Positions 52,336 to 59,497 of a stretch of 64,000 bases of DNA are shown piece by piece (the stretch's first letter is position 1; the number at the start of each line of letters is the position of its first letter). Location of the stretch: contig NZ_JAFEMB010000002.1 of the NCBI RefSeq assembly GCF_016892705.1, forward strand, positions 186,001 to 250,000, read 5' to 3'. Origin of the DNA: Microvirga pudoricolor (GTDB lineage Bacteria > Pseudomonadota > Alphaproteobacteria > Rhizobiales > Beijerinckiaceae). The notes beneath the pieces were generated by a model, which had not been told where the DNA came from, searched no databases, and was given only the letters and a program-made list of their open reading frames with translations. The position numbers were made by a program, and so were the translations under genes.

Positions 52336-54366
52336 ATGAGTCTGACAAGGCGCCTGCTCCTGGTGGCCCTGATCTCGGTCCTGCCGGCGATCGTGATCTG
52401 GACCTACACCGAGGTCTCGCTGCGACGCGCGCGAGAAGCGGAGATCAACGGTCTCGCCCTGCGCCAGGCCCAGCTCGCGGCCTCCGAGATCGAGCGGATC
52501 TTCGAGGGCGTGCGCAGTCTGCTCGTGGCCGTCGAGGAAGTGCCGTCGGTGCGGGATTTCAACGGGCCCGCCTGCACATCCTATCTCGGCAATCTCCGGG
52601 CGAAGGTGCCTTATCTCGACGCCGTGGTCGTGCTCGACCCGAACGGCCTCGCCCGCTGCCAACACGGCTCGGCCACCTACGACGGATTCGCCGACAAGCC
52701 GTACTTTCGCGATGCCCTGAAGACGGGCGACCTCGTAGTGGGCGACTTCACCCGCGTGCGTCTGAACGCGCCGTCCACGCGGCCGATCCTGCCTCTCGCC
52801 CTCGCGTTCCAGGAAGCCGACGGCAGCCTCGGCGGGGTCGTGGTGGCGGCCCTCGACCTGGATTGGCTCGGCCAGCAACTGAGTGCGCGGGCCGTCCCCC
52901 AGGACGGGTCCCTCACCATCGCCGACCGCAACGGCGTCATCATCGCCCGCCAGCCCCTGTCGGAGCGCTTCATCGGGACCCGCATCCCGGACGGCTACAT
53001 GAGCTACGTGTCGGCTCCCGCGTCCGGGGCCTTCGAGGCCCTGAGCCAGGACGGCGTGAAACGGGTGATTGGCTACGTGCCGGCCACCCTGGCGCGGGGC
53101 GTCTACGTCAGCGCCGGGATCTCGTCCAAGGTCGCCTTCGACGGCATCAACCGGGCGGCGAAGCGGGGTTTCCTGCTCATCGCCGCTGCCCTGCTCCTGG
53201 CTCTCTCGCTGTCGGGCCTCATCGGCCGGGCGTTCGTGACGAAACCCTTCGACACCATGCTGAAGGCCGTGCGCGCCTGGCGCCGGGGCAATTACGACGC
53301 CCGCATCGGCATCCGCCCCGCGGCCGGCGAATTCGGCATGCTGGCGAGCGCCTTCAACGATCTCATGAACGACGTATCCGAGCGCCAGAAGGCGCTCCAG
53401 GCCAGCGAGGAGCGCGCCCGCCTCGCCCTCGACGCGGGCCAGATGGGCACCTGGTGGTTCGATCACGACACCAAGACCAGCGGCTGGTCACCGCAACTGG
53501 CCCAGCTCTTCGGCCAGCCTTCCGACAAGGGCTCCGTGACGGTTGCCGAGTGGCAGAGCTATCTGCATCCCGACGAGGCGGACGCGGCGGTCGCCAAGTT
53601 GCGCGCGTCCGTTTCGCGGGACGGCGAGTACGAGGACGAGTACCGGATCCGGCGGCCGGACGGCGAGGTGCGCTGGGTGAGCGCCCGGGGGCGCACCTTC
53701 TTCAACACCTTCAGGCAACCCGTGACGACCATCGGGGTGATCCAGGACGTGACCGCCCGCAAGCTGTCCCAGGACCAGCAGCAGCTCCTGCTCGACGAGC
53801 TGAACCATCGGGTCAAGAACACGCTCGCGACGGTGCAGTCCATCGCCAGCCAAACGCTGCGATCCTCGAAGGATTCGGCAACCTTCAAGAAGGCCTTCGA
53901 GAGCCGCCTCCTGGCGCTGTCGAAAACGCACGACCTTCTGACCCGCAACTCCTGGCGCGACGCAGACTTGCATGCGATCGCCGAGCAGGAACTCGCGCCC
54001 TATCGGCGGGAGAACGGCGGCCGCGTCTTCCTGCGCGGCCCCCGCGTCAACCTGCCGGCCCGCATGGTCATCAGCTTCGGCCTCATCATCCATGAACTCG
54101 TCACGAACGCCGCCAAATACGGCGCCCTTTCGAACGCGTCCGGCCAGATCGAGCTGCGCTGGGTCATCGAATCGGCGGAGAGCGGCCGCCCGCAGCTTCG
54201 CCTCGTATGGACAGAGACGAACGGGCCGCCCGTGACCGAACCGGCCCATCAGGGGTTCGGATCGCGCCTCATCCGGCGCAGCGTCGAAGGCGAGCTGAAC
54301 GGTGGCTTGACCATGGATTACGAGCCGGCGGGGCTTGTCTGCGAGATCGTCGTTCCCCTCGACTGA
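52336..54366 (+). CDS. HWE-type sensor histidine kinase with Cache, HAMP and PAS domains
   Basis: This 676-residue inner-membrane kinase has a first membrane helix (about 6-24), a periplasmic dCache-like domain (about 30-275), a second helix (about 282-302) and HAMP (about 303-360). A PAS domain (about 370-475, with a PAC-like EYEDEYRIRRPDGEVRWVSA) and the HWE kinase core follow. The phosphorylated histidine is in LDELNHRVKNTLATVQS (about 491), the HWE-class N-box is IHELVTNAAKYGA, and the ATP lid is GFGSRLI. No response regulator gene adjoins it. The ligand is unknown. Confidence 0.92.
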   Translation: MSLTRRLLLVALISVLPAIVIWTYTEVSLRRAREAEINGLALRQAQLAASEIERIFEGVRSLLVAVEEVPSVRDFNGPACTSYLGNLRAKVPYLDAVVVLDPNGLARCQHGSATYDGFADKPYFRDALKTGDLVVGDFTRVRLNAPSTRPILPLALAFQEADGSLGGVVVAALDLDWLGQQLSARAVPQDGSLTIADRNGVIIARQPLSERFIGTRIPDGYMSYVSAPASGAFEALSQDGVKRVIGYVPATLARGVYVSAGISSKVAFDGINRAAKRGFLLIAAALLLALSLSGLIGRAFVTKPFDTMLKAVRAWRRGNYDARIGIRPAAGEFGMLASAFNDLMNDVSERQKALQASEERARLALDAGQMGTWWFDHDTKTSGWSPQLAQLFGQPSDKGSVTVAEWQSYLHPDEADAAVAKLRASVSRDGEYEDEYRIRRPDGEVRWVSARGRTFFNTFRQPVTTIGVIQDVTARKLSQDQQQLLLDELNHRVKNTLATVQSIASQTLRSSKDSATFKKAFESRLLALSKTHDLLTRNSWRDADLHAIAEQELAPYRRENGGRVFLRGPRVNLPARMVISFGLIIHELVTNAAKYGALSNASGQIELRWVIESAESGRPQLRLVWTETNGPPVTEPAHQGFGSRLIRRSVEGELNGGLTMDYEPAGLVCEIVVPLD

Positions 54367-54373
54367 TCGGGTC

Positions 54374-55789
54374 CTACCGAAGCACCCATTTGAGCAGCCT
54401 CTCGACGCGCCGCCCATAAGGCGGACGCGTCAGGGCGCTGCCGTTGAACCGGGACTGGTGGAACACCGCCTTGGCATGGCTGAAGGTTCGAAATCCCGCC
54501 TCGCCGTGATACGCGCCCATGCCGCTGTCCCCGACACCCCCGAAGGGCAGCTCCTCCTGCACGCAATGCAGAAGCGTGTCGTTCACCGTGACGCCCCCGG
54601 AGACCGTGCGCTCGAGGGTCTGGGCGACGGTCTGCCGGTCGTCGCTGAAGAGGTAGAGCGCGAGGGGACCCGGCCGCGCATTGATGTAGGCGTAGGCATC
54701 CTCCAGGCTGCGGTAGGGGACGATGGGCAGGATGGGGCCGAAGATCTCGTCCCGCAGGGCAGCCGCCTCGTCCGGCAATCCGGTGAGGATCACCGGCGCG
54801 AGGGTGCGGCCCCCAGGCCCGGTTTCGGCGTCCAGGCTCCTGACGCGGCCGCCGAGCCGCCGCGCATCCTCGACGATGCCCAGCAGGCGCTCCCGGTGCC
54901 GTTCGCTGATGATCGCGCTGTAGTCGGGATTGCCCTCGAAGGTCGGATACAAGCGCAGGGCCGCGGCCGCGAAGGCGTCGGCGAACGCGGCCTCCTGCGA
55001 GGCGTGGACGAGAACGAAGTCCGGCGCGATGCAAGTCTGGCCGGCATTGAACAGCTTGCCGACGGCGATCCGCTCCGCAGCCTTCGCGAGCGGATAATCC
55101 GGCCCCACGATGGCGGGTGTCTTGCCCCCGAGTTCCAGTGTGACGGGCACAAGGCGCTCCGCCGCCGCCTTCATGACCTCGCGCCCGACCGCCGTCGAGC
55201 CGGTGAAGAACAGGTGGTCGAATTTCAGGCGGGAAAATGCCCTGGCGACCTCCGGCCCGCCCTGCACGACGGCGACCTCGTCGGGCCGGAATAGCTCTCC
55301 CAACAGGGATGCCAGCAGAGAGGAGGTCTCCGGCGTCAGCTCCGACGGCTTGATCATCACCCGGTTCCCCGCCGCGATCGCGCCGACGAGCGGCAGCAGG
55401 GTGAGTTGCACCGGGTAATTCCAGGGGCTGATGATCCCGACGAGGCCGAGCGCCTGGTAATGCACGCGACCCCTGCCCGGCCGGAACATCATGCCGATCG
55501 GGCGGCGCTCCGGCCTCATCCAGGCGCGCAGGTGACGCCGGGCGTGACGGGCTGCCGTCACCACGGGAAACAGTTCCGCCAGCCGGGTCTCATCGGCCGA
55601 GCGGTGGCCGAAATCCCGGCTGATCGCCTCAGCCAGGTCCGTGCCGTGCCGGATGACCATGCGGGCGAGGTCTTCGAGGGCCTCAGCCCGGCGCTCCGCC
55701 GGCAACGGCCCATGGGCCGCGAGGGCGCTGCGCAGGGCATCGAAGGCGGTCGTCAGATGCTCGTCCGGTTCGGAAAACAATGCGTTCAT
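54374..55789 (-). CDS. calB: Coniferyl aldehyde dehydrogenase-type aldehyde dehydrogenase
   Basis: This 471-residue NAD(P)-dependent enzyme shows VTLELGGKTPAIVGPD (catalytic Glu region), FNAGQTCIAPDFVLV (catalytic Cys) and GSTAVGREVMKAAA (nucleotide binding). The GQTCIAPDF form and the C-terminal PPYGRRVERLLKWVLR are typical of the calB group. The substrate may be coniferyl or another aldehyde, so the name is tentative. It lies 74 bp after the PEP-mutase gene, in the same direction. Confidence 0.82.
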   Translation of the reverse strand: MNALFSEPDEHLTTAFDALRSALAAHGPLPAERRAEALEDLARMVIRHGTDLAEAISRDFGHRSADETRLAELFPVVTAARHARRHLRAWMRPERRPIGMMFRPGRGRVHYQALGLVGIISPWNYPVQLTLLPLVGAIAAGNRVMIKPSELTPETSSLLASLLGELFRPDEVAVVQGGPEVARAFSRLKFDHLFFTGSTAVGREVMKAAAERLVPVTLELGGKTPAIVGPDYPLAKAAERIAVGKLFNAGQTCIAPDFVLVHASQEAAFADAFAAAALRLYPTFEGNPDYSAIISERHRERLLGIVEDARRLGGRVRSLDAETGPGGRTLAPVILTGLPDEAAALRDEIFGPILPIVPYRSLEDAYAYINARPGPLALYLFSDDRQTVAQTLERTVSGGVTVNDTLLHCVQEELPFGGVGDSGMGAYHGEAGFRTFSHAKAVFHQSRFNGSALTRPPYGRRVERLLKWVLR

Positions 55790-56641: not shown

Positions 56642-57700
56642 TCACGGTTTGATGGCTGTGGCAGTGGCCCGGCGCTCATGTTCGAGGAGCCATTGCTTGC
56701 GCCAGATCTTGCCGCCGTAACCGGTCATCGACCCGTCCGCGCCGATCACGCGATGACAGGGCACGATAATGGCGACCTGATTGGCCCCATTGGCGCGGGC
56801 GACCGCCCGGACGGCGTCGGGGCGGCCGATGGCTTGGGCGAGATACCCATAGCTGCGGGTTTCACCCGCCGGAATCGCCCGCAGAGCCTCCCAGACGTGG
56901 GACGTGAACGAGCTGCCGCGCTGGACCACGGGCATGTCGAACGCAAGCGACGCGCCCGCGAAATAGCGCTCGACCTGTTCCGTCACCCGGTCGAGCATCG
57001 TGTTCCGCCCGAAGCAGACCGGACCGACGGTCTTGCGCAGGCGGTCGATCTCTCCCGGAAGGGCCGTCCGGTCCGCGAACTCCAGGAGATGCAGGCCGGC
57101 ATCGTCCGCGATGGCCAACATCGCCCCGATGGGGGTGTCGATCCACCGGGCCGTGAGGATCGACCACAGGGCCATGCGGGCCGGCGGATTGCCGATCAAT
57201 CCGGTGATGGCCTCCCGGAAGCCGCTTCCGGATTCGTAACCCGCGTCGAGTTGGGCTTCCATCACCGTTCCACCCTGCCGCAGCGTGCCGACGGCATGAC
57301 CCAGCCGCGTCGAGCGCGCATAGCGGGCGAAGGTCATGCCGTACTCTCTCTGGAACGCCCGGCGCACCGTCGAGGCGTCATATCCGAAGGCCTTCAGGTC
57401 GGCGGCGCTCCAGCGCCGCTCGGGCTCGGCCTCGACCTTGCTCCGCAGGATCTCGACGGCGTCACTCACGGGCCTTTTCGCATCCAACGGTCGGCATCTC
57501 AGGCATGGGCGAAACCCCGCTTTCTCGGCTGCGTCGCGGCTTCCGAAGAACGTCACGTTGGCGCGCTTCGGCTTGCGGGCCGGGCAAGTCAGGCGACAGA
57601 AGATGCCGGTCGTCCGCACGCCCACGAACGCAAAGCCTTCATAGGCCGGATCGCGGGCCAGGAGGGCCGCGAAGAGGGTATCGTCGCTGGGTAGAAACAT
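56642..57700 (-). CDS. ada: Bifunctional Ada regulator/O6-methylguanine-DNA methyltransferase
   Basis: This 352-residue protein has the three Ada parts. The N-terminal Zn domain has cysteines in GIFCRLTCPARKP and CLRCRP, including the methylphosphotriester acceptor. An AraC-type HTH follows (about 90-190), then a C-terminal methyltransferase with the active cysteine in IIVPCHRVIGADG. It repairs alkylated DNA and activates transcription once methylated. A TATAAA at 57711-57706 (minus strand) is only 5 nt before the ATG, so the transcript may be leaderless. It adjoins the iteron region. Confidence 0.93.
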   Translation of the reverse strand: MFLPSDDTLFAALLARDPAYEGFAFVGVRTTGIFCRLTCPARKPKRANVTFFGSRDAAEKAGFRPCLRCRPLDAKRPVSDAVEILRSKVEAEPERRWSAADLKAFGYDASTVRRAFQREYGMTFARYARSTRLGHAVGTLRQGGTVMEAQLDAGYESGSGFREAITGLIGNPPARMALWSILTARWIDTPIGAMLAIADDAGLHLLEFADRTALPGEIDRLRKTVGPVCFGRNTMLDRVTEQVERYFAGASLAFDMPVVQRGSSFTSHVWEALRAIPAGETRSYGYLAQAIGRPDAVRAVARANGANQVAIIVPCHRVIGADGSMTGYGGKIWRKQWLLEHERRATATAIKP

Positions 57701-57920
57701 GCCCCTTTATAACGGGCACCGCGCGCGGGTGTCGCCGAAAAGGAGGCGTCGATTTCGTGAATCCCGTCAGAGAGGGCGTGCCATTCCCCTTCCTCCAAAA
57801 AGAAGATCCCGTTTCGCCTATAGGAAGATTATTTGAATCAATTCAGATTCAGAGAGTCTATGAGTCATCTATATGGGACGGCGAATTCTCCAGCTTTGCC
57901 AGTGCTTTAACCACTATTGT

Positions 57921-58230
57921 CGTATTGAACTCTGCGCGACGATGCATTGAACTCGGCGTGGGTGCGTATCGAACTCGGCGTCGGAATCGGGCCGCTCCGC
58001 ATGGGATTCAGCGCGCCTCCGCATCGGATTCAGCGGGGCCGATCGCGCAAACCTTTGAGTTTTCAGGCCTTGCTGACGGGGCTCTCGCATAGAACTCTGC
58101 GCAGGTCCCCTGAACCGACCCGCATGCCGCGCCCAGCCCCCTCGAAGCGTATCGAACTCTGCGTGGATGTGATTCGAAATCCGGATCCGTATCGGACTCT
58201 GCGCGCCTGCACCCGTATCGAACTCTGCGC
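57921..58230 (+). repeat. Nine direct 17-bp iterons, consensus CGTATCGAACTCTGCGC
   Basis: Copies start at 57921, 57943, 57965, 57998, 58020, 58086, 58148, 58188 and 58214, all in the same orientation. Several are exact or one to three bases off the consensus; the 57998 and 58020 copies are the most divergent (ATTCAGCG). The first five intervals are 22, 22, 33, 22 and 66 bp, all multiples of 11. Weaker copies can be read at 57877, 58170 and 58287. Confidence 0.85.
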
Positions 58231-58279
58231 GACCGAAATTTGCCCGAAACCGACTCATTTCCAAGGACTTGGTTAAAGC

Positions 58280-58288
58280 TTTGGATAA
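58280..58288 (-). promoter_or_regulatory. DnaA-box-like site
   Basis: The minus strand reads TTATCCAAA, one base from the DnaA consensus TTATCCACA. It lies between the last good iteron and the repA start codon. A single near-consensus box is only suggestive. Confidence 0.35.
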
Positions 58289-58383
58289 CTCCGGATTCTG
58301 CGAAAGCCCATGGATCCGACTCGGAATGGGAGTCGTTGCGAGTCAGCGAGCCCGCGTTGCGGCTCAGCTCATCCGAGGACCCT

Positions 58384-59478
58384 ATGAGCATAGACGAGCA
58401 GATCGCAACGATCCGTGACGCCGACCTGCTGGCGGAAATCGAGAAAGCCCGCGGACACTTCATGTTCAAGACGCTCGTGGAGCATATCGCCCACAAGCAG
58501 GCTCTGCGCGACAAGGAACGCGAGGCAGAAACCGGCCTCGCTCACCGCCGGGCCGCCATGAGCCGCGATCAGAGACGCCGGGACGCCGTGCGCGAGGTCA
58601 TCGAGAACGAGCCGAGCGCGCCGGACAACATCCAGCACATCCACAGCGTTCTGGCCCTCTGCGGCCTGCCCTACCGGGAGCCGAAGGGCGAGCGGGAATT
58701 CTTCCGGGAATATGGACGCAACACCCTCAGCATCATGGCCGGACGCCTGAAGGACCCCCGAACGGGCCAGATGGAGATCCAAGGCCTTCCCTACGGCCCC
58801 AAAGCACGCCTGCTGCTCCTTCACCTCTGCACCGAAGCCGTGAGGCAGCGCAGCGCCAAGGTGGAGGTGGCCGACAGCCTGTCGGGCTTCATCAAGCAGA
58901 TGGGCTTCCCGGTCACCGGCGGCGACCGAGGGACCCTCCGGCAGTTCAAGGAGCAGCTCAACCGCCTGGCGGCCTGCACCATGCAGATCGGCCTTTGGGA
59001 CGGCGCCGCCCGGTCGAGCACCATCAACGTGCCGCCCTTCCGTCAGCTCGATATCTGGCTGACCGGCAGTTCGGACCAAGGGCTGCTCTGGTCCAACACC
59101 GTCCAGTTTCACACGGAATTTTATGACAACCTGATCCAGCACGCGCTTCCGGTCGACATCCGGGCCGCCCGCGCCTTCGCGGGATCGGCCCGCAAGCTCG
59201 ATATGCTGTTCTGGATGGGCTACCGGCTGCGAACGGTGCAACGACCCCTGCGCCTGACCTGGGACAACCTCCACAAGCAGTTCGGAGCCGACAACGCCAG
59301 CCTGCGCAGCTTCAAGCAGGCCTTCAAGGGCGATCTGGCCCACATCAAGGAGGTGTTCCCGCGCCTGCGCGTGTCCCTCGACGACAACGGCATGCAACTC
59401 CTGCCGACGGATCCTAGCGAACTCCTGGTGGCGCCAAGACGCGCCAAATCCGAAAAGCCCATGATTTCAGCAGCTTGA
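58384..59478 (+). CDS. repA: RepA-like replication initiator (plasmid-encoded RepA family)
   Basis: This 364-residue protein matches the plasmid RepA (RepA_C type) family found in Rhizobiales plasmids and some chromosomes. It shows LPYGPKARLLLLHLCTEAV (about 135-153), GTLRQFKEQLNRLAACTMQI (about 183-202), FYDNLIQHALPVDIRAARAF (about 247-265) and LRLTWDNLHKQFGA. The N-terminal 80 residues are helical and charged. The start at 58384 has GAGG upstream. It is preceded by nine direct iterons and followed two bases after its stop by an inverted one, which fits iteron binding and autoregulation. No partition genes adjoin it. Confidence 0.82.
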   Translation: MSIDEQIATIRDADLLAEIEKARGHFMFKTLVEHIAHKQALRDKEREAETGLAHRRAAMSRDQRRRDAVREVIENEPSAPDNIQHIHSVLALCGLPYREPKGEREFFREYGRNTLSIMAGRLKDPRTGQMEIQGLPYGPKARLLLLHLCTEAVRQRSAKVEVADSLSGFIKQMGFPVTGGDRGTLRQFKEQLNRLAACTMQIGLWDGAARSSTINVPPFRQLDIWLTGSSDQGLLWSNTVQFHTEFYDNLIQHALPVDIRAARAFAGSARKLDMLFWMGYRLRTVQRPLRLTWDNLHKQFGADNASLRSFKQAFKGDLAHIKEVFPRLRVSLDDNGMQLLPTDPSELLVAPRRAKSEKPMISAA

Positions 59479-59480
59479 TC

Positions 59481-59497
59481 GCGCAGACTTCGATTCG
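59481..59497 (-). repeat. Inverted iteron immediately downstream of repA
   Basis: Read on the minus strand, the 17 bases CGAATCGAAGTCTGCGC match the iteron consensus at 15 positions. The site begins two bases after the repA stop codon, in the opposite orientation to the upstream array. Confidence 0.7.

Follow-up and report, generated by a model that had tools for sequence, protein, structure and literature searches.

The locus occupies positions 57701-59497 of the window, by which we mean the whole 64-kb stretch of DNA analysed (G000:C9:186001-250000), part of a contig of 573,571 bp in a draft genome of 4.77 Mb. Between an Ada gene and a tRNA-Ser gene we observed a module composed, in order, of an AT-rich block, nine iterons, a DnaA-box-like site and repA. 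The features are as follows.

56642-57700: Ada gene
57801-57890: AT-rich segment (60% AT), candidate DNA unwinding element
57821-57876, + strand: conserved block TAGGAAGATTAT...GATTCAGAGAGTC...TATATGG, from column conservation in 66 regions
57907-57913: TTAACCA, left arm of an inverted pair on either side of the array (as seen in the window)
57922-57938, + strand: iteron 1, 26.4 bits
57944-57960, + strand: iteron 2, 23.0 bits, spacing 22
57966-57982, + strand: iteron 3, 23.4 bits, spacing 22
57999-58015, + strand: iteron 4, 20.1 bits, spacing 33
58021-58037, + strand: iteron 5, 19.6 bits, spacing 22
58087-58103, + strand: iteron 6, 23.7 bits, spacing 66
58149-58165, + strand: iteron 7, 28.9 bits
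58189-58205, + strand: iteron 8, 26.8 bits
58215-58231, + strand: iteron 9, 27.7 bits
58270-58276: TGGTTAA, right arm of the same inverted pair (as seen in the window)
58280-58288, - strand: DnaA-box-like site TTATCCAAA, one mismatch against TTATCCACA
58384-59478, + strand: repA, RepA_C-family replication initiator of 364 aa (Pfam PF04796, E 3e-19)
59480-59496, - strand: inverse iteron just past the repA stop, 19.3 bits
60190-60280: tRNA-Ser

The original prediction, made from the letters of this DNA, had described an AT-rich segment, at least nine direct 17-bp iterons, a DnaA-box-like site and a RepA-family gene at 57701-59497, in the arrangement of an iteron origin. All of these elements were confirmed, and the anatomy is upheld, with an array, an AT-rich block and a PF04796 initiator present, as in an iteron-type theta replicon. 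Among 90-mers sampled over the whole window, 0.2% reach the AT content of 57801-57890. The conserved block within it was defined after gap-free alignment of the 66 regions on iteron 1, and we read in it an imperfect inverted repeat that may resemble half-iterons. In 60 of 66 regions, TATATG in the AT-rich block has its first base 52-53 nt ahead of iteron 1; the distance from block to iterons is near-fixed, whereas the last iteron and the ATG are anywhere between 152 and 588 nt apart (66 regions).

Related modules were observed in the window's genus, Microvirga, and in Methylobacterium, a name used here in the GTDB sense for the genus of G008, as identified by named RepA relatives. The DnaA-box-like site was scored against TTATCCACA, which we take to be the DnaA-box consensus. 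A one-mismatch site is found 93-106 nt before the ATG in 17 of 17 Microvirga loci (some from the same species), and in Methylobacterium loci the site has a differing position or is absent; with at most one mismatch and at any position, it was observed in 53 of 95 regions. The inverse iteron at 59480-59496, a feature absent from the original prediction, forms the right edge of the module in Microvirga, where one scoring at least 8 bits (9.2-20.7 bits) follows repA in 9 of 10 genomes and is found in the tenth (L133) by a looser pattern only. That looser pattern gave 15 matches in 92 loci, all of them in Microvirga, and none in the Methylobacterium loci. A further inverse iteron 206-226 nt before iteron 1 was observed in 8 of the 10 Microvirga genomes and is not in the window.

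RepA scored 70 bits against PF04796 (cut-off 26), and its gene is single-copy in the window's genome. The closest named relatives are from Microvirga (85-87% identity) and Methylobacterium (66-78%). A sequence search for a solved relative found no significant one, and the structure model was poor (pLDDT 61.6); the best 12 Foldseek matches to this model include RepE54, TrfA and a Rep WH1 domain, all at E >0.1. No partition gene, such as would accompany the origin of a secondary chromosome or fused chromid, was found among the module ORFs. In the window, neither a recombinase nor a transposase, as expected of a mobile cassette or integrative element, was found in the module, repA is its sole ORF with a Pfam match, and the five other ORFs of at least 80 aa that overlap it had no Pfam match.

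The iteron array and its conservation

The array is far beyond chance expectation. Its nine + strand sites scored 19.6-28.9 bits with a 17-nt matrix, and with the cut-off set at 15 bits the whole 64 kb contain nine sites on the + strand, all within the array, and two on the - strand, at 59480 and 53959. Because the matrix had been trained on the window locus and related loci, a matrix-free check was added. We counted 44 repeated 9-mer pairs in 57701-58383, compared with a mean of 1.7 and a maximum of 10 in 1000 Markov shuffles, and only four of 634 window pieces of 683 nt reached 44 pairs, all four overlapping the array. The repeat families at the array were also found de novo, independently of the matrix.

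A matrix built from 95 upstream regions identified 609 gene-strand sites in those training regions and 16 on the opposite strand; applied to the repA coding sequences it gave 3 sites, and to the regions shuffled once each, 2. As the 95 regions are the training set, a held-out set carries more weight: the 22,22 spacing was observed in 55 of 56 held-out primary copies (some of the same species as training loci, so not fully independent), and the remaining one (G354) is truncated where its contig stops. Spacings were compared over those 66 of 69 distinct regions that have four or more iterons. The first two were 22 in all 66 regions, the third was 33 in 63 (32 in three) and the fourth 22 in 64 (89 in two), values that approximate whole helical turns.

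Conservation of the iterons in relatives had been proposed as a test that could refute an active origin; it was run and gave no refutation, the iterons and the initiator being kept across two genera. The array was present in 105 of the 108 Methylobacterium genomes examined and in all 10 Microvirga carriers. Among 52 Methylobacterium loci scored earlier, 49 pass directly and G305 passes with a displaced array, which lies 1.7 kb upstream of repA, beyond an IS3-like transposase gene (HTH_Tnp_1, rve) at 4586-5814 of L181 (G305:C1:1527001-1537000). Loci with a zero array score at contig edges (L014, L038, L039, L122) were left out, as were L062, which carries an iteron-free second type of repA, and L067, a distant relative. 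L115 first scored zero, and its array was then found beyond the IS3-like insertion. Six of 111 genomes are not counted as carrying the array: in G239 the second type alone was found, in G383 and G354 the locus meets a contig edge, and G301, G350 and G384 have partial copies or the second type.

Outside the repA arrays, a genome-wide pattern search of 14 genomes gave 37 iteron matches, and the reversed pattern gave 6. Markov models of order 1 to 5, fitted to sequence from G008 and G000, predict some 2-5 matches per 4.8 Mb, so the 37 represent no excess; a distant RepA site was rejected because these matches are no more numerous than the models expect. Twenty-eight of the 37 have the ending TCGGCG, which most array sites do not share, and four that were inspected (G389:C4, G406:C4, G000:C11, G389:C2) all read as coding sequence. 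Two homologous contigs of about 40 kb, L173 (G389:C4 near 23503) and L175 (G406:C4 near 34726), have one near-perfect iteron in common, which falls within presumed coding sequence and is probably a chance event. In the window itself, a lone 18.9-bit match at 53959-53975 (- strand) lies within an HWE histidine kinase gene; at 52336-55789 this HWE-family kinase gene (dCache, PAS) adjoins an aldehyde dehydrogenase gene.

Distribution, descent and gene neighbourhood

A draw of 298 genomes from the GTDB family gave 30 RepA matches, 28 of them strong and confined to two genera and two weak (30-36% identity). A homolog was observed at E 1e-30 or better in 111 of 111 Methylobacterium genomes, a count that takes in partial copies at contig edges and G239, matched through the second type alone. 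Ten of 48 Microvirga genomes carry a homolog, while 38 are without repA, and the module is therefore dispensable in that genus.

RepA and DnaA identities were closely correlated (rho 0.89; 190 pairs from 20 genomes), with rho values of 0.74 within Microvirga, 0.56 within Methylobacterium and 0.43 between the genera, and with between-genus mean identities of 70.0% for RepA and 73.0% for DnaA. Both trees recover the two-genus split and several of the same pairs, and their disagreements within both genera are weakly supported. Ten of the 38 repA-less Microvirga genomes were added to the DnaA tree. Non-carriers paired with carriers at good support for G405 with G221 (0.997) and G230 with G257 (0.989), and at weak support for G394 with G284 (0.705) and G393 with G388 (0.239). 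This placement of repA-less genomes beside carriers points to repeated loss, with repeated gain a possible alternative, as the origin of the patchy distribution in Microvirga, on what is, with one gene, a thin species tree.

Ten of 12 hand-picked repA pairs had dN/dS values of 0.023-0.092, with 0.26-0.29 in the other two (G108/G188 and G008/G083), a pattern of purifying selection. The suggestion that the module is a domesticated plasmid remnant is a poor fit to these low ratios (0.02-0.09 in 10 of the 12) and to the near-invariant spacing of the array.

The gene settings differ between loci. In Microvirga the module is the only shared DNA in most locus pairs, across several gene settings, and flanks are shared by L035 with G406 and among L006, L007 and G389. 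L002 and L005 have a flank stretch in common with the latter group, located elsewhere or reoriented, which suggests rearrangement around a resident locus. The ada/tRNA-Ser setting proposed for relatives was not found: neither Ada nor the gene that follows repA in the window was observed at 67 other loci (many with 1.5 kb of flank), and tRNA-Ser was absent from the 26 loci scanned for tRNAs. Seven of the 67 gave weak matches (35-51%) to the window's HWE kinase or ABC-F genes, which lie farther out. Integration at tRNA genes was also considered and rejected, as these lie near the module in just 3 of the 26 loci, two of them from one species.

A small same-strand gene follows repA in 73 of 96 loci (species repeats included), none of them from Microvirga. 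Two scanned members matched HARE-HTH at 37.5 and 23.0 bits (cut-off 25.9); examples with the C-terminal match are L012:7692-8231 and L019:7260-7964, and the N-terminal part of the product looks coiled-coil as we read it. One clade contains a second chromosomal repA type, which in G188 (L176, G188:C1:682001-698000) and G232 (L177, G232:C1:265001-281000) comes after a ParA-type gene (AAA_31, CbiA) and a RepB gene (PF07506). Judged by gene content this is a repABC order with a predicted RepA_C initiator in third place. No iteron array was found in four further regions with this type, and G239 shows this type only (L062).

Searches of PLSDB returned 907 plasmid records matching RepA, all below 60% identity, the best among the top 60 of the 907 being 49.3%. 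Small RepA_C (PF04796) plasmids of Xanthobacter, Bradyrhizobium, Mesorhizobium and Rhizobium encode the same full-length initiator family, the Xanthobacter RepA having 49% identity to that of the window, but they differ in that the window's module is chromosomal. Four 7-kb loci from such plasmids contained no array of this iteron, with a single match in three, and had a ParA-type gene (three of four) or an AAA ATPase gene (the fourth) near repA, whereas the window module has none. Capture of an iteron replicon, its long vertical retention and a RepA-iteron complex predicted to be working are well supported by the sequence evidence.

Chromosomal position and possible role

In 20 stretches sampled from G008, GC skew did not change sign clearly, so octamers and parS-like and dif-like patterns were used instead. 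The gammaproteobacterial form of dif had no match in 8 genomes, and a replacement dif-like site was read from G008. This site was sought in 48 Methylobacterium genomes, a non-random set picked for few contigs; G232 had no match, 12 had dif and repA on separate contigs, and 35 had both on the same contig. In 30 of these 35, which are related and hence not independent trials, repA lies 3-331 kb from the dif-like site, and in 29 of the 30 it points toward dif, with G332 pointing away. The exceptions to this placement are G188, G305, G319, G336 and G337, and G319 is near (364 kb) only if a weaker dif-like site is taken. G349 is near only via a one-mismatch site on its repA contig, with a better match on another contig, and in G332 a different contig carries a site that matches just as well. 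Three Microvirga genomes have repA 113, 392 and 562 kb from dif and pointing away from it. The window's genome has dif on a different contig from repA; there, octamer counts of 8 forward and 27 reverse on C9:166001-270000 suggest that its repA also points away from dif.

The octamers examined were of the GGGNAGGG type, which presumably orient FtsK in these bacteria. In sampled stretches of G008 the ratio was 56:22 along the arm from parS to dif and 12:42 along the opposite arm. The bias in G008 is reversed at dif, from 70:16 ahead of it to 7:23 beyond it, and not at repA, with 21:6 on the oriC side of repA and 70:16 between repA and dif. G275 likewise showed no flip at repA (37:7 on the oriC side, 46:13 between repA and dif), and small samples from G318 and G348 showed a flip at dif only. 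As there is no reversal at repA in G008 and G275, the module is not a routine early bidirectional origin in those genomes. The polarity argues against frequent bidirectional firing, not against firing that would be late, rare or conditional. The second active origin considered in the original prediction is narrowed: routine bidirectional firing is opposed by the octamers of two Methylobacterium genomes, and late or conditional firing is the part that may stand.

We favour, tentatively and with a probability of about 0.48, an ancient captured iteron replicon that is held under selection as a normally silent or late back-up origin, for which integrative suppression by an integrated plasmid is the comparison. 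An iteron plasmid-type replicon would have been captured by the chromosome of the ancestor that Methylobacterium and Microvirga share and would then have been inherited as a chromosomal locus. RepA would bind the phased iterons, set its own level and still be able to open the AT-rich block. In Methylobacterium, with the locus usually near dif, forks from oriC would normally copy the module passively; iteron titration or pairing may keep it quiet, and its firing would be confined to a late stage or to cycles in which replication of the terminus is overdue. A back-up origin is favoured because the opening block and the iterons keep a near-exact register whatever the distance to repA.

The most credible alternative, which we nevertheless consider doubtful, is that the RepA-iteron complex is functional without initiating and has another role at the terminus, such as pairing of sisters by handcuffing, domain organisation or timing. 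The conserved architecture without an octamer reversal is consistent with such a role, as are the position near dif (30 of 35) and orientation toward it (29 of 30) and the small gene after repA in 73 of 96 loci, with its HARE-HTH matches above and below the cut-off. However, an AT-rich block kept at a near-fixed distance from the iterons resembles opening machinery, and most Microvirga genomes are without the module.

It is unlikely that the modules stem from repeated insertion of a selfish cassette or plasmid family, which would make their ubiquity a result of transfer rather than function. Sharing of the module alone by most Microvirga pairs in several gene settings, inverse iterons at the module edges and the patchy distribution in that genus would all agree with repeated insertion, but RepA matches DnaA in rate and, for the most part, in tree topology, all 111 Methylobacterium genomes have a homolog, and some Microvirga loci share flanks. 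Plasmid matches all below 60% identity and, in the window, five further module ORFs of at least 80 aa lacking a Pfam match also speak against a mobile cassette.

We consider it quite unlikely that the iterons solely autoregulate repA, with RepA a conserved transcription factor. Repression of their own genes is common among iteron-type initiators, which favours this explanation. This reading, already raised in the original prediction, is weakened by a distance from array to ATG that ranges over 152-588 nt while the array spacing barely changes, by the IS3-like insertion that separates array from repA in G305, and by the lack of an evident regulon, off-array matches showing no excess in 14 genomes; regulation of repA alone could still account for the iterons. 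A main chromosomal origin replacing oriC is highly improbable and was ruled out on dif, parS and octamer evidence: although passages of PMC2680597 describe an M. extorquens chromosome with no GC skew and an origin assigned to dnaA by convention, repA lies at least 2.3 Mb from parS-like sites and 127-297 kb from dif in the near-closed, single-copy genomes G008, G275 and G201, and in G008 the octamer polarity puts the origin close to parS and the terminus at dif. A fork trap was set aside, the iterons having a single orientation at a single site on one side of dif.

Two comparisons with known systems involve repABC genes: the second origin of Agrobacterium fusion chromosomes is of the repABC type, and the repABC initiator of M. 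extorquens DM4 differs from the RepA_C initiator. Among the best matches listed for open PMC titles, we found no report of this chromosomal RepA/iteron locus, and term searches of PMC13342612 and PMC7858055 found neither genus mentioned. Parts of PMC6284228 describe Vibrio cholerae NSCV1 and NSCV2, in which a plasmid-type ori2 and oriC occupy one chromosome, with ori2 active in NSCV1 and silenced in NSCV2; these are single-strain fusions, whereas the Methylobacterium module is genus-wide and apparently ancient. In Agrobacterium, dicentric chromosomes that arose when a circular chromosome fused with a linear one have, according to PMC12153318, two active origins and two essential partition systems; they resemble the present proposal in having two origins per chromosome, but were found in single isolates. 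In M. extorquens DM4 an integrated repABC region lies within the dcm region of the chromosome, as mentioned in PMC2680597, which likewise places plasmid replication genes in a Methylobacterium chromosome, but as a repABC operon in that strain's dcm region. The two-origin chromosomes in these open papers are, in the portions concerned, single-strain fusions (PMC6284228, PMC12153318).

The novelty of the locus rests on its genus-wide fixation and not on a new mechanism. A complete plasmid-style origin with its initiator gene has become fixed in the chromosome of a whole genus of plant and soil bacteria, and these chromosomes may possibly have a conserved second origin. Bacterial chromosomes are generally assumed to be single-origin. 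That the genus has, besides DnaA and oriC, a RepA/iteron origin near the terminus selected for late or on-demand firing, and with it a conserved two-origin chromosome, is possible, though we lean against it. If true, a plasmid-type origin could be domesticated over the long term, with near-exact phasing in 105 of 108 genomes examined, and why few bacteria keep a second origin would become testable in the tractable Methylorubrum extorquens, which we take to belong to the GTDB genus Methylobacterium.
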